Assembly: GCF_007625205.1 (NCBI RefSeq)
Contig: NZ_VMNI01000002.1
Span: forward strand, 186,001 to 250,000
From: Denitromonas ohlonensis
GTDB taxonomy: Bacteria > Pseudomonadota > Gammaproteobacteria > Burkholderiales > Rhodocyclaceae
Reading direction: 5' to 3'
Length of the DNA stretch: 64,000 nucleotides
Below are positions 12,982-56,574 of the stretch, piece by piece (positions within the stretch are counted from its first letter, which is position 1; each line of letters begins with the position of its first letter). Below the pieces are notes generated by a model. It searched no databases. It was not told where the DNA came from and saw nothing but the letters and a program-made list of their open reading frames with translations. A program made the translations under genes and the position numbers.

Positions 12982-13015
12982 GGACTTGTCTCCCCTTTTT
13001 TAAAGGTTGGTTGTG

Positions 13016-26709: not shown

Positions 26710-26726
26710 TGTTCCATCATGGAGCG
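26710..26726. promoter_or_regulatory. Predicted enhancer site, dyad TGTTCC-N5-GGAGCG
   Basis: TGTTCC ATCAT GGAGCG keeps the 6-5-6 layout of the sites at 19807 and 45790, with the last base changed. Its core TCCAT-C-ATGGA is a perfect palindrome. It lies between the divergent aldehyde dehydrogenase and activator genes, 132 bases from the -24 element. Confidence 0.65.
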
Positions 26727-26737
26727 CTTGCGAGCAG

Positions 26738-40419: not shown

Positions 40420-40480
40420 GGATCGCCTCCGTTTCTGGATGACTCCTTCGCAAGCGACGTGCCTGCACCGGCATGGTCGC

Positions 40481-40519
40481 CGGGAAAATTTCCCGGTTCG
40501 CGCGGGAAAGCATCCCGCG
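40481..40519. promoter_or_regulatory. Two tandem palindromes upstream of the PQQ alcohol dehydrogenase
   Basis: CGGGAAA-A-TTTCCCG at 40481-40495 and CGCGGGA-AAGCA-TCCCGCG at 40501-40519. Both contain a GGGAAA...CCC 13-mer; their centres are 22 bases apart. They lie between the divergent histidine kinase and alcohol dehydrogenase genes, suited as operators for the NarL-type regulator encoded in the same locus. Confidence 0.6.
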
Positions 40520-40629
40520 CCGTCGCCAGGACCGGACCCGATACTGAGTGCGTCACTCAACGCTGCGCCGCAAACACCCGAGCCGGCGGACACATCAACA
40601 CCATTCACCCCCGGAGACAAGGAACCACC

Positions 40630-42513
40630 ATGACACCACGCCCCCTGCCATTTCGGCCTCAACTGCGCCCCCTCGTGCTGGCCATCGCGGCCTGCATTGC
40701 CATGCCCGCCGCTGCGGCCAAACTGGTCAGCTGGGAAGACATCCAGAACGACCACCAGACGACCACCGATGTTCTGTCCTACGGTCTGGGCCTCAAGGCT
40801 CAGCGTCACAGCCCGCTCAAGCAGATCAACACAAAAACGGTCGCCGCACTGGCGCCGGCCTGGAGCTTTTCCTTTGGTGGCGAAAAGCAGCGCGGCCAGG
40901 AAGCCCAGGCGCTGGTGCACGAAGGCGTCATCTATGTGACGGCGTCGTACTCGCGCTTCTTCGCCATTGATGCCAAGAGCGGCAAGCGCCTGTGGGAATA
41001 CGAGCATCGTCTGCCCGATGACATCCGCCCGTGTTGCGACGTGGTTAACCGGGGTCCGGCCATCTACGGTGACAAGGTGTTCTTCGGCACGCTCGACGCC
41101 GCCATGGTGGCGCTCAACAAGGACACCGGCAAAGTCGTGTGGAAGAAGAAGTTTGCCGACCACAAGGTGGGCTACACGATGACCGGCGCACCGTTTGTGG
41201 TGAAAGACCAGAAGAGCGGCAAAGTGCTGCTGGTGCACGGCTCGTCGGGTGACGAATTCGGCGTGGTCGGCTGGCTGTTTGCGCGCGACCCGGACACCGG
41301 CGAGGAAGTGTGGGCACGGCCGATGGTCGAGGGCCACATGGGCCGCCTCAATGGCAAAGACAGCACGCCCACCGGCGACGCCAAGGCGCCGAGCTGGCCG
41401 AATGACCCGAAGTCGCCCACCGGCAAGGTCGAGGCCTGGAGCCACGGCGGCGGCGCGCCCTGGCAGACCGCCAGCTTCGACATCGAGAACAACATGGTGG
41501 TCATCGGTGCCGGCAACCCGGCGCCGTGGAACACCTGGAAGCGCACCGCCCCCGGCGACGATCCGCGCAACTGGGACAGCCTGTTCACCTCCGGCCAGGC
41601 CTATGTCGACGCCAGCACCGGCGAGCTCAAGGGCTTCTACCAGCACACCCCGAACGACGCCTGGGATTTCTCGGGCAACAACTCGGTGGTGCTCTTCGAG
41701 TACAAGGATCCGAAGACCGGCAAGCAGGTCAAGGCCTCGGCACACGCCGACCGCAACGGTTTCTTCTTCGTCACCGACCGCGAGAAGCTGGCCAAAGGGG
41801 CGGGCTACCCCAACAAGCCCACATCGCTGATCGGCGCATGGCCATTTGTTGATGGCATCACCTGGGCGACCGGTTTCGACCTGAAGACCGGCAAGCCGAT
41901 CGAGAACAACAACCGCCCACCACAGCCCAAGAACGGCGCCGACAAGGGTGACTCGGTCTATGTTTCACCGCCCTTCCTCGGCGGCACCAACTGGATGCCC
42001 ATGTCGTACAGCCCCGAGACCGGTCTGTTCTACGTGCCGGCCAACCACTGGGCCATGGACTACTGGACCGAGCACCTGACCTACAAGGCCGGATCGGCCT
42101 ATCTCGGCCAGGGCTTCCGCATCAAGAAGCTGTTCGACGACCACGTCGGCGTGTTCCGCGCCATCGACCCCAAGACCGGCAAAATCGTCTGGGAACACAA
42201 GGAAGCCTTCCCGCTGTGGGCCGGTACGCTCACCACCGCGGGCGGCCTGATGTTCTCGGGCACCTCCGATGGTTACGTCAAGGCATTTGACGCGAACACG
42301 GGTGACGAACTATGGAAGTTCCAGACCGGCTCGGGGGTGGTCTCGGTACCGATCACCTGGGAAATGGACGGTGAGCAGTATGTCGGCATCCAGTCCGGCT
42401 ACGGTGGAGCGGTACCGCTGTGGGGTGGCGATCTGGCAGAGCTGACCCGCCAGGTCACCCAAGGCGGTTCGTTCTGGGTGTTCAAACTGCCCAAGCAACT
42501 GGCTGCCAACTAA
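40630..42513 (+). CDS. PQQ-dependent alcohol dehydrogenase, calcium type (PedE/ExaA-like)
   Basis: 627 residues: signal peptide ending at PAAAAK, then the eight-bladed quinoprotein propeller. Adjacent Cys135-Cys136 ([10 protein letters not shown]) form the typical vicinal disulfide; Asn296 in GNPAPWN and the catalytic Asp346 in AWDFSGN bind the metal. The position two after the catalytic Asp is Ser, not Asp, which marks a calcium-type enzyme. Tryptophan-docking repeats (GKRLWEYEHR, GKVVWKKKF, GKIVWEHKEAFPLWAGT) are present. No C-terminal haem domain, so it needs an external cytochrome c. A pentapeptide protein and a cytochrome c-550 follow. Confidence 0.95.
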   Translation: MTPRPLPFRPQLRPLVLAIAACIAMPAAAAKLVSWEDIQNDHQTTTDVLSYGLGLKAQRHSPLKQINTKTVAALAPAWSFSFGGEKQRGQEAQALVHEGVIYVTASYSRFFAIDAKSGKRLWEYEHRLPDDIRPCCDVVNRGPAIYGDKVFFGTLDAAMVALNKDTGKVVWKKKFADHKVGYTMTGAPFVVKDQKSGKVLLVHGSSGDEFGVVGWLFARDPDTGEEVWARPMVEGHMGRLNGKDSTPTGDAKAPSWPNDPKSPTGKVEAWSHGGGAPWQTASFDIENNMVVIGAGNPAPWNTWKRTAPGDDPRNWDSLFTSGQAYVDASTGELKGFYQHTPNDAWDFSGNNSVVLFEYKDPKTGKQVKASAHADRNGFFFVTDREKLAKGAGYPNKPTSLIGAWPFVDGITWATGFDLKTGKPIENNNRPPQPKNGADKGDSVYVSPPFLGGTNWMPMSYSPETGLFYVPANHWAMDYWTEHLTYKAGSAYLGQGFRIKKLFDDHVGVFRAIDPKTGKIVWEHKEAFPLWAGTLTTAGGLMFSGTSDGYVKAFDANTGDELWKFQTGSGVVSVPITWEMDGEQYVGIQSGYGGAVPLWGGDLAELTRQVTQGGSFWVFKLPKQLAAN

Positions 42514-42523
42514 GGCGACAAGT

Positions 42524-42549
42524 CCGGGGCGGCCCACAGGCTGCCCCGG
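42524..42549. repeat. Stem-loop between PQQ alcohol dehydrogenase and pentapeptide genes
   Basis: CCGGGGCGGC (42524-42533) pairs with GCTGCCCCGG (42540-42549) with one G-T pair and a six-base loop. No T run, so it is more likely an attenuating or protective stem than a full terminator. Confidence 0.5.
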
Positions 42550-42569
42550 CGCACCCCGGAACCCACACC

Positions 42570-43160
42570 ATGTCCCGATCTGCATTACTCATCCCCCTGA
42601 TCGCCACGGCGTTGATCAACCAGGCCAGCGCCGCCGATACCGCATCGACCGATGCGGAGGAAACGCTGGTCATCAACGGTTGCCCAATCTGGCCCTATAC
42701 CCGTTGCCCCGGCGCCGATCTGCGCCACGCCGATCTGCTCGGCAAGAACCTCGCGGGTGCCGACCTGCGCGGCGCCAATCTGACGCGGGCCGACCTGCGT
42801 GCCGCCAACCTCGCCGGCGCCAACCTGGAGGGGGCCAACCTCACCGCCGCACGCCTGCAAAAAGCCAACGCACCGGCCGCCAATTTCCGCCACGCCACAC
42901 TGGTGGGCGCCGATCTGGAAGCCGCACGACTGATGCGCAGCGATTTGTCCGGCGCCGATCTGACGGGGGCCAGCCTGGAGTTCGCGCGGCTGAACTTCGC
43001 TTGGCTCGCAGGCGCTCAACTGGTCTCGGCCAATTTGCAGGAGGCGAAATTTGCGACGGTCAATCTACGCGGCGCTCGAATGGAGGGCTGTGTGACGCGT
43101 TTCACCATCTTCCCCGACGCTGATTTTGAAAACTGCCAGGGTTGCCCAACCGGCTGGTAG
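42570..43160 (+). CDS. Exported pentapeptide-repeat protein
   Basis: 196 residues with a signal peptide ending at QASAADT. Residues about 45-175 contain tandem A(D/N)LxX repeats (GADLRHADLLGKNLAGADLR, GANLTRADLRAANLAGANL), forming a right-handed beta helix. Cys pairs at both ends (INGCPIWPYTRCPG and ENCQGCPTG) may cap it by disulfides in the periplasm. A pentapeptide protein gene also sits beside pedE in Pseudomonas putida. Role unknown; it may be a scaffold or chaperone for the dehydrogenase. Confidence 0.88.
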   Translation: MSRSALLIPLIATALINQASAADTASTDAEETLVINGCPIWPYTRCPGADLRHADLLGKNLAGADLRGANLTRADLRAANLAGANLEGANLTAARLQKANAPAANFRHATLVGADLEAARLMRSDLSGADLTGASLEFARLNFAWLAGAQLVSANLQEAKFATVNLRGARMEGCVTRFTIFPDADFENCQGCPTGW

Positions 43161-43184
43161 CGCACGCCGACAAGAGACTATCTC

Positions 43185-43658
43185 ATGCCACACACACCAA
43201 GCCGCCTCGCCGCCATCGGTCTGCTCTGCGCCAGCGCGCTGATGGCACCCGCACATGCCACGACACCGCGTGCGCCGGAAGTCGACAGCTCGGCACTCGC
43301 TCCGCTCGCCAACCCAGACGGCGAGACCAACCCCTATCGAAACGACCCGCGCGCGATCGCCATCGGCCGCGACGCCTTCAATCAAAGTTGCGCCAGCTGC
43401 CATGGCGTCGATGCCGACGCAAGTCGCTCGCCTGCGCCTGACCTGCGCCGCATCGGCCGTCTCTGTGCTCGCGTGCCCGAACCGGATCTCAAGCGCCGCT
43501 GCCTGGCCGACGCAGATGTGTATTTCCGCAGCACGGTCGAAAAAGGCAAGATCAAACTCGGCATCGAACACATGCCGCCATGGAAAGACATTCTTCCGAC
43601 AGAGCTGATCTGGGCAATCCGCAGCTTCGTCGAAACCGCTCAGGGCCAGCGCCTATGA
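43185..43658 (+). CDS. Cytochrome c-550, PedF-like (second copy)
   Basis: 157 residues: signal peptide ending at PAHATTP, NPYRNDPRAIAIGRDAFNQ, haem site CASCH, and Met in GIEHMPPWKD as likely sixth ligand. Compared with the cytochrome at 20033, it has an added Cys-containing insert (RLCARVPEPDLKRRCLAD) before the Met. It follows the pentapeptide gene by 24 bases and very likely takes electrons from the calcium-type alcohol dehydrogenase. Confidence 0.9.
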   Translation: MPHTPSRLAAIGLLCASALMAPAHATTPRAPEVDSSALAPLANPDGETNPYRNDPRAIAIGRDAFNQSCASCHGVDADASRSPAPDLRRIGRLCARVPEPDLKRRCLADADVYFRSTVEKGKIKLGIEHMPPWKDILPTELIWAIRSFVETAQGQRL

Positions 43659-43747: not shown

Positions 43748-45532
43748 TCAGCTCTTGTGGAGCTTGAACACCCACACCGAACCGCCCTGCTCGAGGAAGT
43801 TCACCCGCTTGGCGACATCACCGCCCCACAGCGGCACCGCGCCACCCCAGCCGGAGACCACGGCGATGTACTGCTCGCCGTCCTGCTCCCAGGTGACCGG
43901 AGGTGCGACCACGCCGGAGCCGGTCTGGAAGCTCCACACTTCCTTGCCGGTGGTAGCGTCCAGCGCCTTCAGGTAGCCCTCAGGCGTGCCATAGAAGGCG
44001 AGGTTGCCGGCGGTGGTGAGCACACCACCCCACAGCGGGGCGTAGTTCTTGTTTTCCCACACGATCTTGCCGGTGACCGGATCGACCGCGCGCAGCGCGC
44101 CGATGTAGTCCTCGTTCAAGGCCTTGATGGTGAAGCCAGCGCCCAGGTAGGCGGCGCCTTTCTTGTACGACACGGGCTCGTTCCAGATGTCCATCGCCCA
44201 CTCGTTGGCCGGCACGTAGAAGTAGCCGGTCTTCGGGTTGTAGGCGATCTGCTGCTGGTTCTTGCCGCCGAGGAAGGACGGTGCGGAGGTAACCACTTCG
44301 CCTTTCTTGCCGTCAGCGCCCTTGGTCGGGTCGCCGGGGCGATTGGCGTCGTCATACACCGGGCGGCCGGTCTTCAGGTCGATGCTCTTGGCCCAGGTGA
44401 TCTTGTTCACGAACGGGAAAGCGTTGAGCAGCTTGCCGTTGGTGCGGTCGAGCACGAAGAAGAAGCCGTTGCGGTCGGCCTTGCCACCGGCCTTGATGGT
44501 CTTGCCGTCCTTGACGTAGTCGAAGGAGACAAACTCGTTCACCCCGTCGTAGTCCCAGCCGTCGTGCGGCGTGGTCTGATAGTGCCAAACGATCTTGCCG
44601 TTTTCCGGGTTGATCGCCACGGTGGAGGACGAGAACAGGTTGTCGCCCGGGCGCAGGTGGCTGTTCCACGGGGCCGGGTTGCCGGTGCCGGCGAAGATCA
44701 GGTTGGTTTCCGGATCGTAGGTGGCGCCGGCCCAGGTGGCTGCGCCGCCGGTCTTCCACAGGTCGCCCGGCCAGGTGGCGTTGGTGGTGCCGGAGATGCC
44801 GTTGTCCTTCGCTTTGCCGTCGGCGCCGTAGGTGTAGCCCATGTGGCCTTCGACCACCGGACGCACCCACTTCATCTTGCCGGTCAGGGCGTCTCGCGCC
44901 TCGACACGGCCGATCACGCCGAACTCACCGCCGGACACGCCGGAGATGACCATGCCTTTGACGATGATCGGTGCGGCGGTCATCGAGTAGCCGGCGTGGT
45001 AGTCGTCGACCTTCTCTTTCCACACCACCTTGCCGGTTTCACGGTTCAGCGCCACCAGTTGCGCGTCGAGCGTGCCGAAGATCACCAGATCACCAAACAG
45101 TGCGGCGCCGCGGTTGACCACGTCGCAACACGGCATGATGCCGTCGGGCAGGCGATGCTCGTATTTCCACAGCTTCTTGCCGGTCTTCACATCCAGCGCG
45201 AAGATGCGGCTGTAGGAGGCGGTGACGAACATCACGCCGTCGTGAATCAGCGGCTGCGATTCCTGCCCGCGCTGCTTCTCCCCGCCAAAAGACATCGACC
45301 ACACCGGCACCAGATCTTTCACCGACTCGGTGTTGATCTTGTCCAGCGCCGAATAACGCTGCCCCTGCGTGCCCATGCCGAAAGACACCACATCGTTCGC
45401 GGTAGCCGCGTCCTGCACGATGTCGGCGTCGCTCACGCCTTTTGCCTGGATGCTGCCCATGCCCATCACCGAAGCGGCGATCAGCGAGACTGCGGCGGCC
45501 CAGTGCTTGTTGGATTTGCTCCTGCCTTCCAT
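43748..45532 (-). CDS. PQQ-dependent alcohol dehydrogenase, lanthanide type (PedH-like)
   Basis: 594 residues from ATG 45532, with AAGGAGG upstream. Signal peptide ends near SIQAKG. Vicinal Cys135-Cys136 ([10 protein letters not shown]), metal-binding Asn285 (GNPAPWN), catalytic Asp327 in GWDYDGVNE, and Asp329 two residues on. That extra Asp is the signature of lanthanide-dependent enzymes such as XoxF and PedH; the calcium enzyme in this window has Ser there. It ends convergent to the cytochrome gene at 43658. A sigma-54 promoter lies at 45612 and a shared dyad at 45790. Confidence 0.94.
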
Positions 45533-45611: not shown

Positions 45612-45626
45612 GCAAGAGGCATGCCA
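45612..45626 (-). promoter_or_regulatory. Sigma-54 promoter of the lanthanide-type alcohol dehydrogenase
   Basis: On the minus strand: TGGCATG-CCTC-TTGC. One change (C to T) from TGGCACG-N4-TTGC, with correct GG-GC spacing. Transcription would begin near 45601, leaving about 68 bases before ATG 45532. Confidence 0.72.
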
Positions 45627-45914: not shown

Positions 45915-45929
45915 TGGCACGCCGCTTGC
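45915..45929 (+). promoter_or_regulatory. Sigma-54 promoter of the SoxYZ-like/TonB-receptor operon
   Basis: TGGCACG-CCGC-TTGC, a full match to the -24/-12 consensus. Transcription would start near 45941, 43 bases before ATG 45984. Confidence 0.85.
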
Positions 45930-45983: not shown

Positions 45984-46748
45984 ATGCCCGCACTGCCGCG
46001 CCTTGCCGTGCTTGGACTCGCCTTGTGGTCCGCGCTGGCGATTGCCGAGCCCGATCCGCTCGACTCCGCCCGCTGGGGCGACATGCGTGCGCAGCTCTTT
46101 GCCGCCGAGGCCACCGTGGTGTTCGACCCACGCGTGAGCGTCACCGGCCCGCTCACCGCCGAAGACGCGATGAACGTGCCCATCGCGGTCGACGCCACCG
46201 CGCTGCCCGAGGTGGTCGAGGTGCTGGTGTTTGCCGACTTCAACCCGATCACCAAGGTGCTGGCCTTCCGCCCCAAGGCAGCGCGGGCCGAGCTGGCCTT
46301 TCGTATCAAGCTGCAGCAGTCGTCGCCCGTGCGCGCCGCGGCCCGCACCGCCGATGGCGTGTGGCATGTGGGCGGCACCTGGGTCATCACCACCGGCGGC
46401 GGCTGCACCGTGCCCTCCACCGGCTCGGCCTCGCCCGAGTGGCAGCGCCGGCTCAATGAAGTGAGCGGGCGTATCTGGTCGCGCCCCGAGGGCAACCGGG
46501 TGCGCCTGCGCATCATCCACCCCATGGACACCGGCCTGGCCGCCAGCATCCCGGCCTTCTACATCGAGCAACTGGCCATCACCGACGGCCAGCAGCGCGT
46601 GCTGATGGAAATCGACGCTTTCGAGCCGGTCAGCGAGAACCCGCTGTTCACGCTCGACCTGCCGCCCACGGTGACCGACCTCGTCTCGGTGCAGATCACC
46701 GGCCGCGACAACAACGGCAACAAGGTCAACGCGCAGGTGGAACGATGA
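45984..46748 (+). CDS. Quinoprotein-associated SoxYZ-like carrier protein
   Basis: 254 residues: signal peptide ending at ALAIAEPD; a SoxY-like half with the conserved TTGGGCTVPS near residue 137, where the Cys would carry the substrate group, and a SoxZ-like C-terminal half (VRLRIIHPMDTGL, VLMEIDAFEPVSENPLFTLDL). This fusion belongs to the class found beside quinoprotein alcohol dehydrogenases (PP_2677-like). Periplasmic; function unproven. ATG 45984 is favoured over the out-of-frame ATG at 45980, with GGAG upstream. It overlaps the next gene by ATGA. Confidence 0.88.
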   Translation: MPALPRLAVLGLALWSALAIAEPDPLDSARWGDMRAQLFAAEATVVFDPRVSVTGPLTAEDAMNVPIAVDATALPEVVEVLVFADFNPITKVLAFRPKAARAELAFRIKLQQSSPVRAAARTADGVWHVGGTWVITTGGGCTVPSTGSASPEWQRRLNEVSGRIWSRPEGNRVRLRIIHPMDTGLAASIPAFYIEQLAITDGQQRVLMEIDAFEPVSENPLFTLDLPPTVTDLVSVQITGRDNNGNKVNAQVER

Positions 46749-47683
46749 AGCGCCTGCTCGCCCTCCTCGCCCTCATTGCCGTACACGCCACCGCGGCCGG
46801 CTTCGACTACGCGCTCGCGCCGCGCCAGATCGCGCCTGACACCTGGGTGCTCGAAGGCGCGCAAGAAGACTTCTCCTTCGCAAACGGCGGTCGCATCGTC
46901 AATACCGCCTTCGTCGTCACCCCGGCCGGCGTGGTGGTGATCGACAGCGGTCCCTCGCGCCAGTACGGCGAACAGACCGTCGCCGCCATCGCGCGCATCA
47001 CCGACCAGCCCATCGTCAAGGTGTGGATCACCCACCACCACCCCGACCACTTCCTCGGCAACCAGGCCTTTGCGCCCAAAACGCTGGGCGCCCTGGCGCG
47101 CACCCTCACCGACATCGAGACCGAAGGCAAAGCCTTCAACGAAAACATGTACCGCCTGGTTGGCGACGCCATGCGCGACACCGAGGTGGTGGTGCCGACC
47201 GAGGCGCTGGTGGCCGGCATCGTCGACATCGGCGGCCACCGCTTCGAACTGCTCGCGCTCGACGGCCACACCGCCGGCGACCTGGCCGTGCTCGACCACA
47301 GCACCGGCGTGCTCTTCGCCGGCGACCTGGTCTTCCATGACCGCACCCCCACCACCCCGCACGCCACCATCGCCCGCTGGCTCAACAGCCTCGACGTGCT
47401 CGAAGCGCTCCCCTTCAAGCACGTCGTACCCGGCCACGGCCCGGTCGCCGCCGACGCTGGCCCCATCCGCCAGACCCGCGACTACCTCAAATGGCTGGAC
47501 GGCCTCCTCACCCAGAGCGCCGCCGCCGGACTCGACATGACCGAGGTCATGCGCCTGCCCCTGCCCAAGCTGTTCCGCCAGATGGCGGTGATCGACGCCG
47601 AGTTTCCACGCTCGGTCAGCCATCTGTACCCCGCGGCCGAAGAAGCCGCGCTCCACGTATCCAGCCATCCGGCCAAGCACTGA
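46745..47683 (+). CDS. Quinoprotein-associated zinc metallohydrolase (MBL fold, SoxH-like)
   Basis: 312 residues with a signal peptide ending at VHATAAGF. Metallo-beta-lactamase motifs: ITHHHPDHFLGN (HxHxDH type), LDGHTAGD with His and Asp, and VVPGHGPV. Family of hydrolases encoded beside SoxYZ-like carriers and PQQ alcohol dehydrogenases. May release or process the group bound on the carrier Cys. Periplasmic. Three bases separate it from the TonB-dependent receptor gene. Confidence 0.9.
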   Translation: MKRLLALLALIAVHATAAGFDYALAPRQIAPDTWVLEGAQEDFSFANGGRIVNTAFVVTPAGVVVIDSGPSRQYGEQTVAAIARITDQPIVKVWITHHHPDHFLGNQAFAPKTLGALARTLTDIETEGKAFNENMYRLVGDAMRDTEVVVPTEALVAGIVDIGGHRFELLALDGHTAGDLAVLDHSTGVLFAGDLVFHDRTPTTPHATIARWLNSLDVLEALPFKHVVPGHGPVAADAGPIRQTRDYLKWLDGLLTQSAAAGLDMTEVMRLPLPKLFRQMAVIDAEFPRSVSHLYPAAEEAALHVSSHPAKH

Positions 47684-47686
47684 CCC

Positions 47687-50005
47687 ATGATCAAGCACAC
47701 CCCCATCACCCTCCTGATCGCTGCCCTCGGCGCCGCGGCCCATGCGGCCGACCCCGCCACCCTCGGCACCCTCGAAGTGATCGGCACGGCCCCGCTGCCC
47801 GGCCTTGATGTGCCGCGCGACCACATCCCCTCGGCCATCCGCACACTCGACGACCGCGCGCTGCGCCATGCCGGCGGCGCCTCGCTGGCCGAGAATCTCC
47901 AGCGCCGCCTGCCCGGCGTGTCGATCAACGAAGTCACCGGCAACCCGCTGCAAGCCGACCTCAACTACCGCGGCTTCACCGCCAGCCCGCTCCTCGGCAC
48001 ACCGCAGGGCCTGTCAGTATTCATGGACGGCGTGCGCCTCAACGAAACCTTTGGCGACGTGGTCAGCTGGGATCTGATCCCCCAGTCGGCCATCGCCGAC
48101 CTCACCCTCGCCCCCGGCGCCAACCCGCTCTACGGCCTCAACACCCAGGGCGGCGCCATCGGCCTGCACACCAAGCGCGGCGACACCCACCCCGGCGGCG
48201 AAGCCAGCCTGTCGAGCGGGTCATTCGGCCGAACGCGGGCCAGCCTGTCGCACGGCGGTTCCAAAGACGAACTGTCGTGGTTCGTTGCCGGCGACGCCCT
48301 GCGCGACGACGGCTGGCGCGAGCGCTCGCCCTCCGAGGCCGGCCAGCTCTTCGGCAAACTGGCCTGGACCACCGCCACCACCGACATCGCCCTCACCCTG
48401 GCCCAAGCCAACACCGACCTCATCGGCAACGGCCTGACCCCCACCAGCTTGCTGAGCGACGACCGCAACACCATATTCACCCACCCCGACCAGACCCGGA
48501 ACCGCAGCACCCTGCTGGCGCTGTCGGCCAGCCACTGGCTCGGCGACAGCGACCGCCTCGCCGCCAACGCCTACCTGCGCCGCACCCGCTCGCGCACCCT
48601 CAACGGCGACGCCAACGACGACTACGAAGACGCCTACGAAAACTGGGTCACCGGCGGCATGATCGGCCCGGCCCCGGACGAAACCGGCGTGCTCAACCGC
48701 ACCGCCACCGACCAGAACAGCGCCGGCCTCGGGCTGCAATGGACCCACTATGCCGAACGCCACCAGTTTGCCCTCGGCGTGAGCCACGACCGCGGCCACG
48801 CCCGCTTCTCGCAGACCGCGCAGGAAGGCGAACTGACCGACAACCGCGGCGTGGACACCGACGAAGCCAGCGAGCTGGAAAACAAACTCTCGGGCCGCAC
48901 CCTCACCACCAGCGTGTATGTGACCGACACCTTCGCCCTGGCGCCCACGGTGCAACTGACCGCCGCCGCCCGCTTCAACCACACCCATGTCATCAACCGC
49001 GACAAGCTCAATCGCGTCTCTCCCAACCTCGACGGCGACTTCACCTACAACAAGCTCAACCCCGCGCTCGGCCTCACCTGGCAAGCCAGCCCGGCGCTCA
49101 CCGTGTATGGCGGCATCAGCCAGAGCAACCGCGCCCCCAGCCCCATCGAACTGGGCTGTGCCGACCCGGCCAACCCCTGCACCCTGCCCAACGCCCTGGC
49201 CGCCGACCCCTTCCTTGAGCAGGTGGTCACCCGCAGCCTGGAGCTCGGCCTGCGCGGCCAAAGCGGCGAGGGCCTGCGCTGGCACGCCGGGCTGTTCCGC
49301 GCCACCAACCACGACGACATCCTGTTTGTCGGCACCTCCACCAGCGCCGGCTACTTCACCAACTTTGGCCAGACCCGCCGCCAGGGGCTGGAACTGGGCG
49401 CCAGCGGCAATGCCGGCACCTTCAACTGGCGCATCGACTACACCCTGCTCGACGCCACCTTCCGCAGCAGCGCCTGCCTGCTGGCCGAGAACAATGCCAG
49501 CCGCGGCCAGAGCGCCGAGTGCACCGCCGACGGCCAGGACGACGAGATCCTCATCTCGCGCGGCGACCAACTGCCGGGTCTGCCGCGCCACAGCCTCAAG
49601 CTCGGTGTGGACTGGCGCGCCACCGAGCACCTCACCCTCGGCGCCAGCGTGCTCGCCTACAGTGGCCAATATGCGCGCGGCAACGAGAACAACCAGCACC
49701 GCACCGGCAACGCCACCGACCGCTTCGGCGAGACCCGTACCTTCGACGACGACGGCAAGCTGCCCGGCTACGCCATCCTCAACCTCTCCGCCGACTACGC
49801 GCTCGGCCGCGGCTGGACGCTGTTCGGCCGCATCGACAACGTCTTCGACCAGCGCTACGCCACCGCCGCCGCGCTGGCCGAAAACCCCTTCGACAATGGC
49901 AGCTTCCAGGCCGACCCGGACGACTGGCGTCGCGAGCGTTTCGAAGCGCCGGGCACCCCGCGCGCCGGCTGGATCGGCGTGCGCTACGCCTGGGGCGGTC
50001 GCTGA
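47687..50005 (+). CDS. TonB-dependent outer-membrane receptor in the quinoprotein operon
   Basis: 772 residues: signal peptide ending at AAHAADPA, TonB-box-like TLGTLEVIG, plug domain (about 40-165: SLAENLQRRLPGVSINEV, LSVFMDGVRLNETFGD, NPLYGLNTQGGAIGLHTK) and a 22-strand barrel ending in GWIGVRYAWGGR; the last residue is not Phe but the barrel strand is complete. Its place between quinoprotein partner genes and a two-component system, under a sigma-54 promoter, suggests uptake of something this system needs, such as PQQ or a lanthanide chelate. That is inference. The stop overlaps the kinase ATG by one base (TGATG). Confidence 0.9.
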   Translation: MIKHTPITLLIAALGAAAHAADPATLGTLEVIGTAPLPGLDVPRDHIPSAIRTLDDRALRHAGGASLAENLQRRLPGVSINEVTGNPLQADLNYRGFTASPLLGTPQGLSVFMDGVRLNETFGDVVSWDLIPQSAIADLTLAPGANPLYGLNTQGGAIGLHTKRGDTHPGGEASLSSGSFGRTRASLSHGGSKDELSWFVAGDALRDDGWRERSPSEAGQLFGKLAWTTATTDIALTLAQANTDLIGNGLTPTSLLSDDRNTIFTHPDQTRNRSTLLALSASHWLGDSDRLAANAYLRRTRSRTLNGDANDDYEDAYENWVTGGMIGPAPDETGVLNRTATDQNSAGLGLQWTHYAERHQFALGVSHDRGHARFSQTAQEGELTDNRGVDTDEASELENKLSGRTLTTSVYVTDTFALAPTVQLTAAARFNHTHVINRDKLNRVSPNLDGDFTYNKLNPALGLTWQASPALTVYGGISQSNRAPSPIELGCADPANPCTLPNALAADPFLEQVVTRSLELGLRGQSGEGLRWHAGLFRATNHDDILFVGTSTSAGYFTNFGQTRRQGLELGASGNAGTFNWRIDYTLLDATFRSSACLLAENNASRGQSAECTADGQDDEILISRGDQLPGLPRHSLKLGVDWRATEHLTLGASVLAYSGQYARGNENNQHRTGNATDRFGETRTFDDDGKLPGYAILNLSADYALGRGWTLFGRIDNVFDQRYATAAALAENPFDNGSFQADPDDWRRERFEAPGTPRAGWIGVRYAWGGR

Positions 50006-51387
50006 TGCACCCCCGCGCCCGCCTCGATACCCGCGTCAGCCTGGTGGTCACACTGGCCGCCGCGGCGCTGATGCTGTTTGGCGGCACGCTGTGGCTGGCC
50101 GCCACGCGCGACGCCATTCATGAGGAAATCGAGGCGGCGACGCGGGTGGCCGAACAATGGGTTGCCGTGCTCTCGCAAGACGCTGCGGCCGACCCCGAAC
50201 ACATCGTGCAGCAGCTGGCAGCGGTGGGCCGGGTACGCGCCAATACGCTAGAGGTGCACGAGGCCAGTGGCGCGCTGCGCTACCGCTCCCCCGCGCCGAC
50301 CTACAAAGCCGGGCGCGACGCCCCGGCGTGGTTCGCCGCCCTGCTCACCCCCGACTTCGCGCCGCGCGTGATCACCGGCCCGAACTTGCACATCCGCCTG
50401 CTGCCCGATGCCTCGCGCTCGGTGCTCGACGCCTGGGACAACGCCATCGCCGCGGCCGGCTGGGCGCTGGCGATCCTTGTGCTGCTCGGCGTGGCCGTGC
50501 GTCGTGCCATCGACCGCGCGCTGGCCCCGCTCACCGAATTCGAAACCGCGCTCGCACACACGGGCGACGGCCGCTTCGACATTCGCCTGCCCCGCCAGCG
50601 CAGCCTGGAACTCGATCGCCTCGCCGAGCGCTACAACCAGATGGCGAGCCAGCTGGCCGCCTCGCTCGACCAGAACGCCCGCCTCGAAGAAGACCAGGCC
50701 TTTGCCCGCGCCGTCACCGCCCGGCTCGAAGAAGAGCGCCGCCAGCTCGCCCGTGAGCTGCACGACGAGTTCGGTCAGGGCATCACTGCCGTACGCGCCA
50801 TCACCGGCGCCATCGCCCAGAAAAGCCGCGACGACGCCGGCCTGCACGGCAACGCCCAAGCCATTCTGGCCATGACCGGCCAGATGCAGGACGGCGTGCG
50901 CGCCATTCTCGAACGCCTGCGCCAGCCCGGTGCCGACACGCCCGCCCGGCTCGACGACGCGCTCGCCGCCTACTGCGCCCACTGGCGCAACTGCTACCCG
51001 GCGGTGGATATTCAACTCGGCCTCGCACCGCTGCCTGCCACGCTCGACGCCAGCTTCAGCCTCACCGTGCTGCGCTTGGTCCAAGAGGCGCTCACCAATG
51101 TGGCGCGCCACGCCAACGCGCATCATGTCAGCGTGCGGCTCGACGCCAACGACGCCGGCCTCGCGCTCACGATTGCCGACGACGGCCGCGGCTTTGACCC
51201 CGCCACGCCCACCGGCCGCCTCGGTCTCACCGGCATGCGCGAGCGCCTCGCCGCCCGCCATGGCCGGCTTCACATCGCCGCCACGCCCGGTGCCGGCACC
51301 ACGCTCAGCATCCAACTCCCCTGGCCGAGCACCGCCACGGGCACGCACACACCGCAGCACGCCTACACCCCAGGAGAAGCCTCATGA
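50005..51387 (+). CDS. Membrane histidine kinase, HisKA_3 type
   Basis: 460 residues: helix about 12-33, periplasmic part about 34-145, second helix about 147-166, HAMP, phosphotransfer region with His253 in ARELHDEFGQG, and HATPase with NVARHA, DDGRG and GRLGLTGMRER. The C-terminal tail is Thr/His-rich. It is translationally coupled to both the TonB receptor (TGATG) and the response regulator (ATGA). The periplasmic domain may sense a metal, PQQ or a redox state. Confidence 0.92.
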   Translation: MHPRARLDTRVSLVVTLAAAALMLFGGTLWLAATRDAIHEEIEAATRVAEQWVAVLSQDAAADPEHIVQQLAAVGRVRANTLEVHEASGALRYRSPAPTYKAGRDAPAWFAALLTPDFAPRVITGPNLHIRLLPDASRSVLDAWDNAIAAAGWALAILVLLGVAVRRAIDRALAPLTEFETALAHTGDGRFDIRLPRQRSLELDRLAERYNQMASQLAASLDQNARLEEDQAFARAVTARLEEERRQLARELHDEFGQGITAVRAITGAIAQKSRDDAGLHGNAQAILAMTGQMQDGVRAILERLRQPGADTPARLDDALAAYCAHWRNCYPAVDIQLGLAPLPATLDASFSLTVLRLVQEALTNVARHANAHHVSVRLDANDAGLALTIADDGRGFDPATPTGRLGLTGMRERLAARHGRLHIAATPGAGTTLSIQLPWPSTATGTHTPQHAYTPGEAS

Positions 51388-52031
51388 GCCCCCAACCGCT
51401 GACCGGACTGCGCCTTGTCATTGCCGACGACCATGCCGTCGTACGCATGGGTTTTCGACTCCTGCTCGAAGGCGCCGGCGCCTCCGTGCTTGCGGAAGCG
51501 GAAAGTGGTGAGCAGGCCATCGCGCTGTTTGCCGAGCACCGACCCGACGCGCTGGTGATGGATGTGTCCATGCCCGGTCAGGGCGGGCTGGCCACGCTGG
51601 AACGCCTGACCGCCCACCACCGCGGCGCACGGGTGCTGATGCTCTCGGCCCATGACGACATGCAGATCCCGGCCCGCGCGCTCAAGGGCGGCGCTACCGG
51701 CTACCTGTGCAAACGCGCGCGACCCGACGAGCTGGTGCGCGCCGTGGGCTGTGTGGCGCGCGGCGAACGCTACATCGACCCGGATCTGGCGCCGCGCCTG
51801 GCGCTGGCACAGTTCAGCGACAGCGACCCGGTCGCGCAGTTGTCGGACAAGGAATTCACTGTCTTCAAGCAGCTCGCCCTCGGCCGCTCGGTGGCCGAAG
51901 TGGCCGACACCCACCACCTCGCCCCCAGCACGGTGGGCACGCATTTGTATCGCATCAAGCAAAAACTCAATGCCAGCAACGCCGCCGAACTGGCGCTGAT
52001 CGCCGTGCGCAGCGGGCTGATCGAGGTGTGA
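51384..52031 (+). CDS. NarL/FixJ-type response regulator
   Basis: 215 residues: receiver with phospho-Asp60 (ALVMDVSMPG) and Lys in YLCKRARPD, then a LuxR-type helix-turn-helix (LSDKEFTVFKQLALGRSVAEVADTHHLAPSTVGTHLYRIKQKL). Partner of the kinase at 50005. Targets unknown; the divergent lanthanide/calcium dehydrogenases are natural candidates. It overlaps the following GTG start. Confidence 0.92.
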   Translation: MSPQPLTGLRLVIADDHAVVRMGFRLLLEGAGASVLAEAESGEQAIALFAEHRPDALVMDVSMPGQGGLATLERLTAHHRGARVLMLSAHDDMQIPARALKGGATGYLCKRARPDELVRAVGCVARGERYIDPDLAPRLALAQFSDSDPVAQLSDKEFTVFKQLALGRSVAEVADTHHLAPSTVGTHLYRIKQKLNASNAAELALIAVRSGLIEV

Positions 52032-54130
52032 TCCGACACGACGCACGGCGCGCGCTGGCCCTGTGTGTCGGGCTGTTCGTCGCCGCGTCGACCACGGCCG
52101 GGCAACTGAGCCGGGCCGATATCGCACGGCGCATTTCGCCGCCGCTGGTCGTCGGCGAAAAACCGGCCGACACCCCGGCCTGGCCAATTAGCAGTGAGCT
52201 GACGCCCGACGCCGGCCCCGTCGGCTGGGTGTTCGAATCGATCGACCTCGCCCCCATCCCGGGCTTTGAAGGCACGCCCTACAACCTGCTCATCCAGATC
52301 GACACCACCGGCCAACTGCTCGACGTCGAACTGCTGCGCCAACACGAACCGGTGTTTCTCAGCGGTCTGGGCGAAGCCCCACTGCGCGACTTTCTTGCCC
52401 AATACGCGGGGCTGAACCTGAGCCAGTCGATCACCGTGTCCACCGCCTACTCGGATCGCAGCAACACGCGGCAAAGCCAGTCCGACCGCGTCGTGCTCGA
52501 CGGCGTCACCAAGGCCACCGCCTCGGTGCGCATCGCCAACCAGACCGTGCTCACCGCCGCGCTCGCCGTGGCCCGCGCCCAGCTCGGCTTCGCCGGCCCG
52601 GCGCAGCACACACCACCGGCCGAGGTGCGTGAAGACCGCTTCGAGGTGCGCAGCTTCGCGCAACTACTCGCCGACGGCAGCATCGCGCGACTTCGCCTCA
52701 CCCACGCCGATGTCGAAGCCTTGTTTGCCGGCACCGACGGCGCCGGGCTGGACAGCTCGGACGCGAGCCCCGACGCCCTCGTCACCGAACTCTATGTCGC
52801 CTATCTGAACGCACCAACCCTCGGCCGGGCGATTCTGGGCGACGCGGGCTACACGCATCTGCGCGGCTTTCTCGAACCCGGTCAGCACGCCTGGTGGGTC
52901 GCCACCGCCGGGCCCGACAGCCTCATCGACACGCACTTTGTGCGCGGCACGTCCCCCGAGCGCTTGAGCCTGCAGCAACACGGCACGCCCTTCGAGCTGC
53001 GAGATTTCGACACCGCCCCGGCCCCACCGCCCGGCGCGCCGGCGCTCAATGCCGCGCTGGTGCTGCGCACTTCGCCCTTGTCGGGGTTGGACCCGGCGGC
53101 CGAACAGACTTTCGAGCTGAGCTTTACCCGTCAGCGCGGGCAGATCCTGCCGCAACGCATCCACCGCAGCGCCACGCTGGCCTACACTCCGCCGGCAGAC
53201 TACTTCCGCCTGCCCCCCGCCCCCCTGCCCGAGTGGCTGATCGCCTGGCGCGAGCGCGTGGTGGAGCTGTCGACCATTGGCCTCGCCCTGCTCATGCTCA
53301 GCATCGCGCTGACACGGCCGCGCTGGCTGAGCCGGTCGGCGCGCCGCTTGCGTATCTTCCGCCTCGGGTTTCTGGCCTTCACGCTGATCTATATCGGCTG
53401 GATTGCACAAGGTCAGTTGTCCATCGTGCAGATCACCGGCGCCATCAAGACACTGGCCGCCGGGCACGCGCTCACCAGTTTTCTGTACGACCCGGTGTCG
53501 CTGCTGATCATGGCTTTCACATTGCTGAGCTTTTTCATCTGGGGGCGCGGCAGCTTCTGCGGCTGGCTGTGCCCCTTTGGCGCGCTGCAGGAATTCGCCG
53601 CCGAGCTGGGCGCCCGCCTGGGCCTGCGAGCACGCCGCCTCCCGCCGCGCGTGGCGCTCGCGCTCGACCGCGGCCGCTACGGCATTCTGCTCGCACTGGT
53701 GCTCAGTGCCGCGCTGGCGCCGGCCATGGCGGAGCGTCTTGTCGAGGTGGAGCCCTTCAAGACCGCCATCACTGTCGGCTTCGACCGCGCCTGGCCTTTC
53801 GTGCTCTACGCACTCGGCCTGCTGGCGCTGGGCGCGGTGTATTACAAATTTTTCTGCCGCTACCTGTGTCCGTTGGGTGCAGCGATGGTCATTGGCGGCA
53901 AGCTGCGCGTGCTCGACTGGCTGCCGCGCCGCGCCGAATGCGGCCAGCCCTGCCAAACCTGCCGCCACCGCTGCGCCTACGACGCCATCGACCGAAACGG
54001 CAGCATTCGCTACAACGACTGCTTCCAGTGCCTGGACTGCGTCGGCATCTATCACGACGAGGCCCGCTGCGCGCCGCTCTTGCTGTATCGGCGCAAGGGC
54101 CGACGGGTTGGCACGATCAAGTCATCCTAG
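52028..54130 (+). CDS. NosR/NirI-like flavin- and iron-sulfur-containing membrane protein
   Basis: 700 residues from GTG 52028, overlapping the regulator stop. Signal/anchor near 8-24, periplasmic FMN-binding domain with DGVTKATAS near residue 160 (the Thr is the usual covalent FMN site), about five membrane helices, the two CxxxCP motifs GSFCGWLCPFGA and FFCRYLCPLGA, and a cytosolic ferredoxin part with CGQPCQTCRHRC and CFQCLDC. This is the NosR plan and length. NosR feeds electrons to periplasmic nitrous oxide reductase, but no nos genes are here. Electron transfer for the quinoprotein system or its maturation is my inference. Confidence 0.88.
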   Translation: MIRHDARRALALCVGLFVAASTTAGQLSRADIARRISPPLVVGEKPADTPAWPISSELTPDAGPVGWVFESIDLAPIPGFEGTPYNLLIQIDTTGQLLDVELLRQHEPVFLSGLGEAPLRDFLAQYAGLNLSQSITVSTAYSDRSNTRQSQSDRVVLDGVTKATASVRIANQTVLTAALAVARAQLGFAGPAQHTPPAEVREDRFEVRSFAQLLADGSIARLRLTHADVEALFAGTDGAGLDSSDASPDALVTELYVAYLNAPTLGRAILGDAGYTHLRGFLEPGQHAWWVATAGPDSLIDTHFVRGTSPERLSLQQHGTPFELRDFDTAPAPPPGAPALNAALVLRTSPLSGLDPAAEQTFELSFTRQRGQILPQRIHRSATLAYTPPADYFRLPPAPLPEWLIAWRERVVELSTIGLALLMLSIALTRPRWLSRSARRLRIFRLGFLAFTLIYIGWIAQGQLSIVQITGAIKTLAAGHALTSFLYDPVSLLIMAFTLLSFFIWGRGSFCGWLCPFGALQEFAAELGARLGLRARRLPPRVALALDRGRYGILLALVLSAALAPAMAERLVEVEPFKTAITVGFDRAWPFVLYALGLLALGAVYYKFFCRYLCPLGAAMVIGGKLRVLDWLPRRAECGQPCQTCRHRCAYDAIDRNGSIRYNDCFQCLDCVGIYHDEARCAPLLLYRRKGRRVGTIKSS

Positions 54131-54191
54131 TCGCCGCCGTTAAGCATTGCATGGAGGCCCATCGCCTCAAGCCATGCAGGAGCGGCAGCGG

Positions 54192-55559
54192 ATGCCCGAT
54201 TCACTCAAACTGTCCGAACTCATCGGCGCGCTCAGTCACGCGCTCGACATGACCGAAGGCCAGCCCCCCGGCCACTGCGTGCGCTGCTGCTGGATCGGCA
54301 CGCACATTGGCCGCGAGATCGGGATGAACGACGCCGATCTGTGGGAGCTGTATTACACGCTGCTGCTCAAGGATCTGGGTTGCAGCAGCAATGCCGCGCG
54401 CATCTGCGAGCTCTATCTGGCCGACGACCGTCAGTTCAAGCGCGACTTCAAGCTGATCGACGGCAGCCTGCCGCAGGTGCTCAACTTCGTGCTGCGTCAC
54501 ACCGGCCTGAAAACCGGGCTGGCCGAGCGCTTTCGCGCCATGATGACAATCTTCCGCGATGGCGAGCAGATCGCCCAGGAGCTGATCCAGACCCGCTGCC
54601 AGCGCGGTGCCGATATCGCCCGTCAGCTGCGCTTTGGCGAGCGGGTGGCGATGGGCGTGCATTCGCTCGACGAGCACTGGAACGGCAACGGCCGGCCCGA
54701 TCGCCTGGCGGGCGACAACATTCCGCTGGTTGCGCGCATCGCGCTGCTGGCGCAGGTGGTCGATGTGTTTCACACCGCCGACGGCGCCGACGCCGCGCTG
54801 GCCGAGGCGGAAGAACGTGCCGGTAGCTGGTTCGATCCGTCGCTGGTCGCCGCGCTCAAACGCGCGGCGGCGGACCCCGCCTTCTGGGCCATGCTGAACG
54901 ACCCGCAGCTCGACGCCGCGGTGTTTGCCCTCGAACCCGGGCGCACCGAAGTGGCGCTCGACGATGACTACCTCGACGAAATCGCCGCCGCCTTCGGCCA
55001 GGTGGTCGACGCCAAGAGCCCCTACACCTCAGGCCACAGCGCCCGGGTGGCGCTGTACACCGACATGATCGCCGAGTCGCTCGGCCTGTCGGCCGAGCGC
55101 CGGCGCTGGCTCAAGCGCGGCGCGCTGTTGCACGACGTGGGCAAACTGGGGGTGTCCAACGCCATCCTCGACAAACCCGGCAAGCTCGACGACGCCGAGT
55201 GGGCCGCGGTCAAGCTTCACGCAGCCCACACCGAAACCATCCTCCGGCGCATCCCCGCCTTTGATGAACTGGCGCGTGTCTCGGCGGCGCATCATGAGCG
55301 GCTCGACGGCGGCGGCTACCCGCGCGGCCTGAAGGCTGAGCACATCAGCACCGAGACGCGCATCATCACCACCGCCGACATCTTTGACGCGATCACCGCC
55401 GAGCGGCCCTACCGCGGCGCCATCCCGATTCCGAAAACGTTGGAGATCATGGCCGAGAACGTCGGCACGGCCATCGACGCACGCTGTTTCGACGCGCTCA
55501 AAGTCGCCCTCGCCCGCCTGGACACCACGCAGCCGGAGGCCGTCGCGCTGGCATGCTGA
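54192..55559 (+). CDS. HD-GYP domain phosphodiesterase with N-terminal HD-like region
   Basis: 455 residues; ATG 54192 with AGGAG upstream (ATG 54174 also possible). The first 200 residues look like a degenerate HD domain (ELYYTLLLKDLGCSSNAAR; SLDEHWNGNGRPD). The C-terminal part is a full HD-GYP: YTSGHSARVALYTDMIA, GALLHDVGKLGV, HHERLDGGGYPRGL. It probably degrades cyclic di-GMP. It is 61 bases after the NosR-like gene and may belong to the same transcript. Confidence 0.88.
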   Translation: MPDSLKLSELIGALSHALDMTEGQPPGHCVRCCWIGTHIGREIGMNDADLWELYYTLLLKDLGCSSNAARICELYLADDRQFKRDFKLIDGSLPQVLNFVLRHTGLKTGLAERFRAMMTIFRDGEQIAQELIQTRCQRGADIARQLRFGERVAMGVHSLDEHWNGNGRPDRLAGDNIPLVARIALLAQVVDVFHTADGADAALAEAEERAGSWFDPSLVAALKRAAADPAFWAMLNDPQLDAAVFALEPGRTEVALDDDYLDEIAAAFGQVVDAKSPYTSGHSARVALYTDMIAESLGLSAERRRWLKRGALLHDVGKLGVSNAILDKPGKLDDAEWAAVKLHAAHTETILRRIPAFDELARVSAAHHERLDGGGYPRGLKAEHISTETRIITTADIFDAITAERPYRGAIPIPKTLEIMAENVGTAIDARCFDALKVALARLDTTQPEAVALAC

Positions 55560-55629
55560 GGCGAACCCCAATATCTGTGCGCAGCGTTCATCGCTAGACT
55601 GAAAAGAACGCCACTCGCCGAGGCCCGCC

Positions 55630-56574
55630 ATGGATTCACTCAGCTTCACCGATTTCGCATCGGCCAGCCGCGCGGTGCTCAGTTACCTGCATCGCAAACT
55701 TGGCTTCAAACTGTGGATGGTCACCCGCACCGAGGGTGAGGACTGGATCGTGCTCGATGCCGAAGACCACGGCTATGGCGTCGAAGCCGGCACGGTGTTT
55801 CGCTGGGCCGACTCTTTTTGCTCCGAGATGGTCAAGGGCAACGGCCCTCGCATCGCGCCGCAGTCAGACACAATCCCCGCCTACGCCACCGCACCGATCG
55901 GCCAGCAAGTCGAAATCAAAGCCTATATCGGACTGCCGCTGACCCGCGCCGATGGCAGCCTGTTTGGTACGCTTTGCGCCATCGACCCGGCGTATCAACC
56001 CGAATCAATCACCGAAGAGCTCCCGCAGATCGAACTGCTCGGCGCGCTGCTGAGCACCATCCTGCACTCCGAACTGAACGCGACCGACGAAAAAAGACGC
56101 GCCGAGCGCCTCGCCGCCGAGGCCATGACCGACGCGCAAACGGGGCTCTACAACCGTCGTGGCTGGGATGTGCTGGTGCGCCAGGAAGAGGCCCGGTGCC
56201 GTCGCTACGGTCACAAGGCGGCAATCCTTGTTGCCGATCTGGACGGTCTCAAGACCATCAACGACACACGTGGCCATGCCGCAGGCGACGCCCTGATCGC
56301 GCAAACCGCCGACGTTCTGCGTCGTTGCATTCGCAGCAACGACATCGTCGCGCGACTGGGCGGCGACGAATTCGGCATCCTGAGTGTGGAATGTGATCGC
56401 GCTGGCGCCGATGGCCTGTTCGAGCGCGTTCGTGCGGCCGCGCAAGACGCAGGTATCGAATTGTCGCTTGGCCTGGCCATGCGCGGCCATGTCACCGGGC
56501 TCGAAGCCACCTGCGAAGCCGCCGACCAGGCCATGTTCGAAGACAAACGGGCGCGCAAGGCCGCCCGCGACTGA
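55630..56574 (+). CDS. GAF-GGDEF diguanylate cyclase
   Basis: 314 residues: GAF domain about 15-150 (IGLPLTRADGSLFGTLCAID) and a GGDEF domain about 160-310 with DAQTGLYNRRGWD and the intact active site RLGGDEFGIL. No membrane helix. Expected to make cyclic di-GMP, opposed by the HD-GYP protein just upstream. No RxxD inhibitory site is obvious. Confidence 0.92.
   Translation: MDSLSFTDFASASRAVLSYLHRKLGFKLWMVTRTEGEDWIVLDAEDHGYGVEAGTVFRWADSFCSEMVKGNGPRIAPQSDTIPAYATAPIGQQVEIKAYIGLPLTRADGSLFGTLCAIDPAYQPESITEELPQIELLGALLSTILHSELNATDEKRRAERLAAEAMTDAQTGLYNRRGWDVLVRQEEARCRRYGHKAAILVADLDGLKTINDTRGHAAGDALIAQTADVLRRCIRSNDIVARLGGDEFGILSVECDRAGADGLFERVRAAAQDAGIELSLGLAMRGHVTGLEATCEAADQAMFEDKRARKAARD

Follow-up and report, generated by a model that had tools for sequence, protein, structure and literature searches.

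The window analysed here, a 64,000-nucleotide (64-kb) stretch of the Denitromonas ohlonensis genome, contains six tightly packed plus-strand genes (positions 45984–54130) that encode a SoxYZ-like carrier, a SoxH-like zinc hydrolase, a TonB-dependent outer-membrane receptor, a histidine kinase, a response regulator, and a NosR-like membrane flavin/iron-sulfur protein. They face a PedH/ExaF-type alcohol dehydrogenase that uses pyrroloquinoline quinone (PQQ). At the level of sequence and comparison, the packing of the genes, two conserved and facing sigma-54-like sites, and the tie to a lanthanide-type enzyme are established. The unit very probably serves this lanthanide-type enzyme, and the best explanation of the whole, with about an even chance of being right in full, is that the six genes form a sigma-54-controlled accessory operon of the facing dehydrogenase.

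The first gene (45984–46748) encodes a fused SoxY/SoxZ carrier of the quinoprotein dehydrogenase-associated family TIGR04557 (213.6 bits, above the cut-off of 140; PF13501 and PF08770). It overlaps by four bases the gene for the SoxH-like quinoprotein relay system zinc metallohydrolase 1 (46745–47683; TIGR04558, 431.5 bits, above the cut-off of 300). A three-base gap separates the latter from the receptor gene (47687–50005), whose product has a plug and barrel (PF00593 and PF07715) and belongs to an unnamed family. The receptor gene overlaps by a single base that of the kinase (50005–51387), which has HAMP, HisKA_3, and HATPase domains by Pfam and a predicted periplasmic sensor region. Four-base overlaps then join the kinase to a LuxR/NarL-type regulator with Response_reg and GerE domains (51384–52031; PF00072 and PF00196) and the regulator to the NosR-like, or NapH-like, protein (52028–54130; Fer4_5), which scores 518.8 bits against the NosR family NF046105, below its cut-off of 1000. 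An earlier sequence-only reading of this DNA had described six genes overlapping or at most three bases apart, and the open reading frames, junctions, and families are all as it stated.

The facing dehydrogenase is encoded on the minus strand (43748–45532, ATG start), divergently from the operon, and matches TIGR03075 at 785.8 bits, above the cut-off of 480. Lanthanide-type PQQ alcohol dehydrogenases are recognized by an extra aspartate two residues past the catalytic aspartate. The active site of the facing enzyme carries this lanthanide motif, as WDYDG, together with an adjacent pair of cysteines; the family match and the motif uphold the earlier claim that the operon faces a lanthanide-type alcohol dehydrogenase.

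Two putative control sites lie between the divergent genes. On the plus strand, a sigma-54 site for the operon (TGGCACGCCGCTTGC, 45915–45929) is the sole exact match within the 64 kb, and on the minus strand a sigma-54-like site for the dehydrogenase (TGGCATGCCTCTTGC, 45612–45626), not mentioned in the earlier reading, has 10 of the 11 consensus bases. Relaxed to two mismatches, the pattern occurs in the window no more often than chance predicts (34 found versus 41.7 expected); the operon site is credible because of its position and conservation. A scan requiring GG and GC was applied to 25 distinct intergenic regions, i.e., 29 dehydrogenase/cassette rows less four duplicates, with the window's own included and some rows being near copies. 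The best site kept at least 10 of 11 consensus bases on the cassette side in 19 of the 25 and on the dehydrogenase side in 24. In 200 letter shuffles per region, p was at most 0.05 in 29/29 rows for the dehydrogenase side and 27/29 for the cassette side, duplicates kept. The full-consensus sigma-54 promoter claimed earlier is retained as a putative promoter: the exact match exists, and near-consensus sites recur in relatives. Two sigma-54 activators are encoded elsewhere in the window (17723–19846 and 26690–28699).

Conservation of the cassette was traced in 199 genomes from the window's family, in which proteins related to the NosR-like product comprise a window type (47–95% identity, at 48 further places), classic NosR (33–36%), and three nos-linked proteins (37–40%). 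The 48 family loci are every place at least 46% identical to the NosR-like protein (the lowest being 47%; G381 is a fragment), the window's own excluded. A second set, the named loci, consists of the best 80 of at least 577 relatives and shares at least four contigs with the first (L172 = L119, L174 = L122, L175 = L136, and L177 = L134). Cassette chains were defined as same-strand matches with gaps of at most 2 kb, and many loci are cut by contig ends, so that absences are lower bounds. Besides the window, the order SoxYZ, SoxH, an optional TonB gene, receptor, kinase, regulator, and NosR-like gene recurs at 7 of the 48 family loci, in four genera including the window's own. PedH lies opposite this order in six of the seven; the contig of the remaining one, L159, is without PedH. 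The chain from receptor to NosR-like gene is found at 10 of the 48 loci, the same-strand core of kinase, regulator, and NosR-like gene at 20 (a TonB gene being present in 14 of them), and a receptor-less version running SoxYZ, SoxH, TonB, kinase, regulator, and NosR-like gene at four. The extra gene that follows SoxH and precedes the receptor or kinase encodes a TonB protein (PF03544 in two examples scanned); it is absent from the window operon, and the same genome has TonB genes elsewhere. Among the best 80, the closest named record, Zoogloeaceae bacterium L170, carries the whole cassette in the same order, with a NosR-like protein 88% identical to that of the window. Chance packing of unrelated genes was rejected on the recurring order and the conserved facing sigma-54 sites.

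Three individual loci depart from the pattern in detail. In L116, of the same genus and one of the seven, SoxH is split over two frames (7678–8109 and 8109–8579), a possible frameshift or assembly error. In the same-genus genome G436, whose operon is 83–95% identical, two other genes encoding 292 and 302 amino acids occupy the NosR-like slot (L160, 13425–15303); the NosR-like conduit has been lost or exchanged between close relatives. In L121, a second, short NosR-like fragment (6430–6729, 66% identical) lies about 2 kb past the full NosR-like gene.

By their neighbourhoods, the window-type NosR-like genes go with quinoproteins rather than with nos genes. A PQQ alcohol dehydrogenase lies within 10 kb at 23/48 family and 43/80 named loci, compared with 0/20 loci of classic NosR, a control hand-picked, chiefly from the head of the list of 62 genomes that carry classic NosR. 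NosZ lies within the same distance at 0/48 and 0/80, compared with 19/20 in the control (NosD, 17/20) and with all three loci of the 37–40% group. The NosZ query in these locus searches was one clade I protein, used in tblastn, and the identities of the NosZ, NosD, and pqq queries were confirmed. Counting any quinoprotein-linked gene within 10 kb, the figures rise to 25/48 family and 55/80 named loci. Where a dehydrogenase is linked, it carries the lanthanide motif at 23/23 family and 39/43 named loci (three not scorable; calcium type in L242), so that by this motif the linked enzyme is nearly always of the predicted lanthanide type. The same association appears at the level of genomes, from presence/absence lists transcribed by hand: NosR-like proteins occur in 44 of the 199, PedH-type enzymes in 71, and both in 42 (Fisher 1.8e-21), i.e., a PedH-type enzyme is present in 42/44 carriers of the NosR-like protein versus 29/155 other genomes. 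The PedH-type set includes five genomes whose sole match is 55–57% identical; without them the count is 41/44. By genus, a PedH-type carrier is found in 23/23 NosR-like genera versus 9/45 others. Conversely, the NosR-like protein has no association with NosZ across the 199 genomes, whether clade I (16/44 carriers, p 0.58), clade II (11/44, p 1.0), or either (27/44 versus 86/155 others, p 0.61), whereas 61 of the 62 classic NosR genomes hold clade I NosZ. Classic NosR is also present in 17 of the 44 window-type carriers; D. ohlonensis itself lacks classic NosR and encodes a clade II NosZ on a different contig (contig 32). In a tree of 68 proteins made by a quick method, one branch with support of 100 splits 45 window-side from 23 nos-side rows, which were labelled by origin; one row is very long, and the window-side L239 and L242 adjoin the nos side.

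The NosR-like protein has the residues expected of a redox carrier. Hallmarks of NosR are a threonine motif for flavin mononucleotide (FMN), CX3CP motifs, and cluster-binding cysteines. The window protein has an FMN-type domain (D158-GVTKAT164), CGWLCP and CRYLCP motifs, and eight ferredoxin-type cysteines; Thr164 is kept in 44/45 window-side and 23/23 nos-side proteins, and twelve checked cysteines in 68/68. PF12801 is matched at 63.4 bits (cut-off 22), and Pfam FMN_bind reaches 13.2 bits against a cut-off of 22. No sequence relatives of the protein were found in the PDB at E up to 1. Its AlphaFold model (mean predicted local distance difference test 81.9; predicted template-modelling score 0.64) has as its best PDB fold match RnfG, the FMN subunit of Rnf (E 7.7e-4, probability 1.00, template-modelling score by target 0.51). 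An ApbE gene directly follows the NosR-like gene in five of six annotated plasmid regions, from Sulfitobacter, Methylorubrum, Shinella, Aquabacterium, and Variovorax; for the sixth, Azoarcus KH32C, ApbE is not listed beside it in a plasmid gene table that is incomplete. A PQQ alcohol dehydrogenase is listed in two of the six regions and PedF in four. For example, a single region of the Variovorax plasmid holds a PQQ alcohol dehydrogenase, a high-potential iron-sulfur protein, a receptor relative (41%), ApbE, the NosR-like protein, a PQQ catabolism propeller, and pqqBCDE. The one ApbE of the D. ohlonensis genome is encoded away from the operon.

Several observations weigh against an accessory unit of this composition. 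A neighbourhood survey, set beforehand as the refutation test, gave a mixed result. At 26 of the 48 family loci no cassette gene lies directly upstream of the NosR-like gene on the same strand, although at several of these a kinase and a regulator adjoin it divergently. Ten receptor-centred loci (L160–L169), chosen from receptor matches, divide evenly: L160, L163, L164, L165, and L169 have PedH, SoxYZ, SoxH, receptor, kinase, and regulator without the NosR-like gene, and the other five have different neighbours, with neither the operon nor the NosR-like gene. On the favourable side of the same survey, the carriers of NosR-like proteins hold somewhere in the genome not only a PedH-type dehydrogenase (42/44) but also the receptor (41/44). 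Cassette parts are seldom present at the 80 named loci (SoxYZ at 4, SoxH at 4, the window-type receptor at 4, kinase plus regulator at 14), and no PQQ alcohol dehydrogenase or quinoprotein-linked gene lies within 10 kb at 23/48 family and 25/80 named loci. In the Azoarcus KH32C plasmid, kinase and regulator genes lie near the NosR-like gene, and no ApbE or quinoprotein gene is listed in 26 kb. Receptor relatives were viewed in four regions hand-chosen from 23 records with a match. On a Caballeronia plasmid the relative lies among unrelated genes, and on an Ideonella plasmid (L276, 49%) it lies by a kinase and regulator, an FMN-binding protein with ApbE, and MbnP/MbnM copper/methanobactin-type genes, a region that hints at a metal-chelate receptor family recurring near flavinylated proteins. 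The co-occurrence tests handle relatedness by a genus table only. Within the 71 PedH-type genomes, SoxH is rarer with the NosR-like protein (28/42) than without it (27/29, p 0.01), whereas the receptor is commoner (40/42 versus 16/29, p 7e-5), and all 55 genomes with a SoxH above cut-off are of the PedH type. These counts indicate that receptor and conduit go together and that SoxYZ and SoxH belong to the dehydrogenase, not to the conduit. A PedF-like or similar cytochrome c is present in 27/43 named and 14/23 family loci that have a PQQ alcohol dehydrogenase, counted by matches to the PedF-like protein of the window and to another cytochrome-like group, which was judged by eye and has no NCBIfam match. 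Because the cytochrome is often kept, the NosR-like protein is no simple stand-in for it, and cytochrome replacement, as drawn for one cluster in the available part of a survey of flavinylated proteins (PMC8238504), is not the general case. Finally, LapD_MoxY_N, a domain of the rare-earth-element switch kinase MxaY (PMC6115532), gives sub-cut-off matches in two of three relative kinases (15.9 and 12.5 bits; cut-off 25) and is not reported for the window kinase.

For the operon as an accessory of the lanthanide-type dehydrogenase, the following division of labour is proposed. The TonB-energised receptor would import not PQQ but a chelated metal, most likely a lanthanide. The kinase and its LuxR-type regulator would gauge metal or enzyme status and tune the operon, by analogy with PedS2/PedR2 and MxaY. 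SoxYZ and SoxH, an optional part, may tend the quinoprotein by sulfur chemistry. The NosR-like protein is predicted to carry covalent FMN attached by ApbE, and its iron-sulfur clusters would serve as an electron path linking the dehydrogenase system in the periplasm with the quinone pool. That this protein transfers electrons rather than senses is probable. The direction is a more tentative matter: electrons may run from the dehydrogenase to the membrane, the direction proposed for related proteins in PMC8238504, which would give them a further outlet alongside cytochrome c. This preferred inward direction has somewhat less than an even chance.

Flow in the opposite direction is an unlikely alternative. 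In this scheme, which follows what is proposed for NosR and PceC, the NosR-like protein would draw electrons from quinol and send them outward; their target, while the dehydrogenase is being matured or repaired, would be a disulfide, a sulfur adduct, or PQQ, and SoxYZ and SoxH would handle the sulfur. The relatives NosR and PceC serve reductases, according to the portions available of two papers (PMC8238504; PMC7660919). The adjacent cysteine pair of the dehydrogenase and the retention of cytochrome c in many loci would fit such a role, as would a family-3 binding protein encoded directly before the NosR-like gene in L036 and L148; that of L148 is nearest to the quinoprotein-associated TIGR03871 and MoxJ, under both cut-offs. 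However, SoxH does not track the NosR-like protein among PedH-type genomes, and the cassette is without a reductase-like partner. In the L036 locus (2818–12991), the NosR-like gene directly follows genes for a PedF-like cytochrome and for a solute-binding protein; its other side is occupied by an AcoR-type activator gene and by pqqB, pqqC, and pqqE, which lie 5 kb from the NosR-like gene.

Import of a metal chelate is mildly favoured as the function of the receptor. NCBIfam gave 12 families for the protein, all scored under cut-off and none named LutH or LanA, and the PDB holds no sequence relatives at E up to 0.001. The earlier interpretation had the operon importing PQQ, and a PQQ importer or recapture system is still conceivable but improbable. 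Receptor relatives do occur in pqqBCDE regions of Variovorax and Paraburkholderia, adjoining pqqBCDE and formylmethanofuran genes in the Paraburkholderia replicon, and there is a weak match to PqqU. This match (NF041535, 97.1 bits) does not reach the cut-off of 1200, however; the D. ohlonensis genome has pqqC of its own; and among PedH-type genomes the receptor is as common with pqqC (42/53) as without it (14/18, p = 1), i.e., it is not enriched where pqqC is missing. On the PqqU score and the pqqC counts, PQQ scavenging was rejected as the leading interpretation of the receptor. What stands of the earlier interpretation is a unit around a lanthanide-type dehydrogenase, by virtue of the recurring order, the paired sigma-54 sites, and the genome co-occurrence; its PQQ import is weakened.

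A sensory role for the NosR-like protein is more doubtful again. As a redox or occupancy sensor it would work with the kinase and regulator pair, to which it lies 3' on the same strand at the 20 family loci mentioned above, and NosR is described as having a regulatory role that affects nosZ transcription, in the available part of one study (PMC7660919). Against this, the complete set of redox ligands is conserved, and many loci pair the NosR-like gene with a cytochrome c and a binding protein, several with ApbE, without an adjoining kinase and regulator. In a model search, the kinase returned, among the matches listed, histidine-kinase cores, mostly of the DesK type, with no named sensor domain standing out. 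The idea that a denitrification (nos) gene lies here by chance, to which the NosR family match and the clade II NosZ elsewhere in the genome might lend colour, is very improbable and was rejected on the NosZ-free loci, the position across the support-100 branch from nos-linked NosR, and the lack of co-occurrence with NosZ of clade I, clade II, or either.

The electron-transfer reading can be taken further, to a self-contained lanthanide-alcohol respiratory module: an outer-membrane receptor for metal, in many cases accompanied by a TonB of its own, a sensor pair, and a flavin/iron-sulfur conduit that would feed the quinone pool one coupling site before cytochrome c. The full cassette would be found mainly in Rhodocyclaceae/Zoogloeaceae, with a core of receptor, conduit, and dehydrogenase also in Variovorax. 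Such a module is an attractive but unlikely extension.

On the far side of the facing dehydrogenase lie ped/exa-type neighbours (40213–43658, plus strand). The first is a calcium-type PQQ alcohol dehydrogenase with the motif WDFSG (40213–42513, plus strand; the true start is probably later), and between the two dehydrogenases come genes for a pentapeptide-repeat protein and for a cytochrome c that resembles PedF (95.6 bits, below the PedF cut-off of 122). Both enzymes have adjacent cysteines, and by the aspartate rule they would be a lanthanide-type and calcium-type pair, as in PedH/PedE. Downstream, an HD-domain gene (54147–55559, plus strand; PF13487) starts 16 bases 3' of the NosR-like gene and keeps this place in L110, L170, and also L160, from which the NosR-like gene is missing; it is possibly an extension of the operon restricted to the closest relatives. 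A GGDEF gene follows (the pair spanning 54147–56574), and the pair keeps its place in L170, which suggests cyclic di-GMP signalling near the alcohol operon. Another periplasmic dehydrogenase may be represented by a methylamine-dehydrogenase heavy-chain-like gene (15182–16612; PF06433), one gene from the sigma-54 activator at 17723–19846. An Rfam scan of the window gave nothing reaching gathering score.

If the proposal is correct, the lanthanide-type oxidation of alcohols in this family is equipped with a receptor, a sensor, and an electron route dedicated to it, which are unreported for the Pseudomonas model in the text available from the cited sources. The NosR-like genes at these loci would partner quinoproteins rather than N2O reduction, which affects the prediction of denitrification potential from genome sequences. 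The operon also offers candidates for how non-methylotrophs move lanthanide across the outer membrane and for the role of flavinylated NapH-like proteins beside alcohol dehydrogenases. The sequence-only reading had taken the combination to be undescribed, and this was too broad for two of its parts: flavinylated NapH-like (NosR-type) proteins clustered with the ethanol oxidase ExaA in 172 genomes have been reported (Meheust et al., 2021; PMC8238504), as have SoxYZ and SoxH beside pedH (PMC12997753). As regards the joint cassette, it stands as far as the accessible parts of the literature go. In the open-licence literature searched, the joint cassette, the receptor–conduit co-occurrence, the predominance of the lanthanide motif among the linked enzymes, and the paired sigma-54 sites were not found.

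Among the closest known systems is the NapH-like/ExaA cluster, for which it was proposed that the flavoprotein hands electrons of the alcohol oxidase on to the respiratory chain (PMC8238504). Both systems place a NapH/NosR-type membrane iron-sulfur protein with an FMN domain, predicted in the case of the window protein, beside an ExaA-type alcohol oxidase. In contrast to the present operon, the receptor, TonB, kinase and regulator, SoxYZ and SoxH, lanthanide motif, and sigma-54 control are unmentioned in the available part of that work, and its drawn example has the flavoprotein in the place of the cytochrome, whereas here cytochrome c is often kept too. In the ped cluster of Pseudomonas putida KT2440, the lanthanide-dependent PedH is encoded next to the SoxYZ-like PP_2677 and the SoxH-like PP_2678 (PMC12997753), in line with the earlier claim that a carrier and hydrolase beside quinoproteins are known. 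That cluster also shares LuxR-type two-component control, PedF, a pentapeptide protein, and a calcium-type enzyme with the window, as far as the available text of two sources extends (PMC12997753; PMC6115532), and a two-component rare-earth-element switch has already been described (PMC6115532). It differs in that NosR is unmentioned in the main text of the review (PMC12997753); P. putida is described there, in the part available, as being without a LutH homologue, with the outer-membrane lanthanide route left open. LutH and LanA are comparable to the window receptor by their description as TonB receptors tied to lanthanide-type quinoproteins, in an excerpt (PMC12482762). NosR of P. stutzeri and P. 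denitrificans, in the portions available of two studies (PMC7660919; PMC12052999), is a membrane protein with periplasmic FMN on a threonine, cluster-binding cysteines, and dependence on ApbE, features seen or predicted in the window protein too, and the same threonine and cysteine positions are found in the 23 nos-linked NosR proteins aligned; the window-type protein, of which the window's own scores half the curated cut-off, is set apart from it by its neighbours, its distribution among genomes, and its side of the tree.

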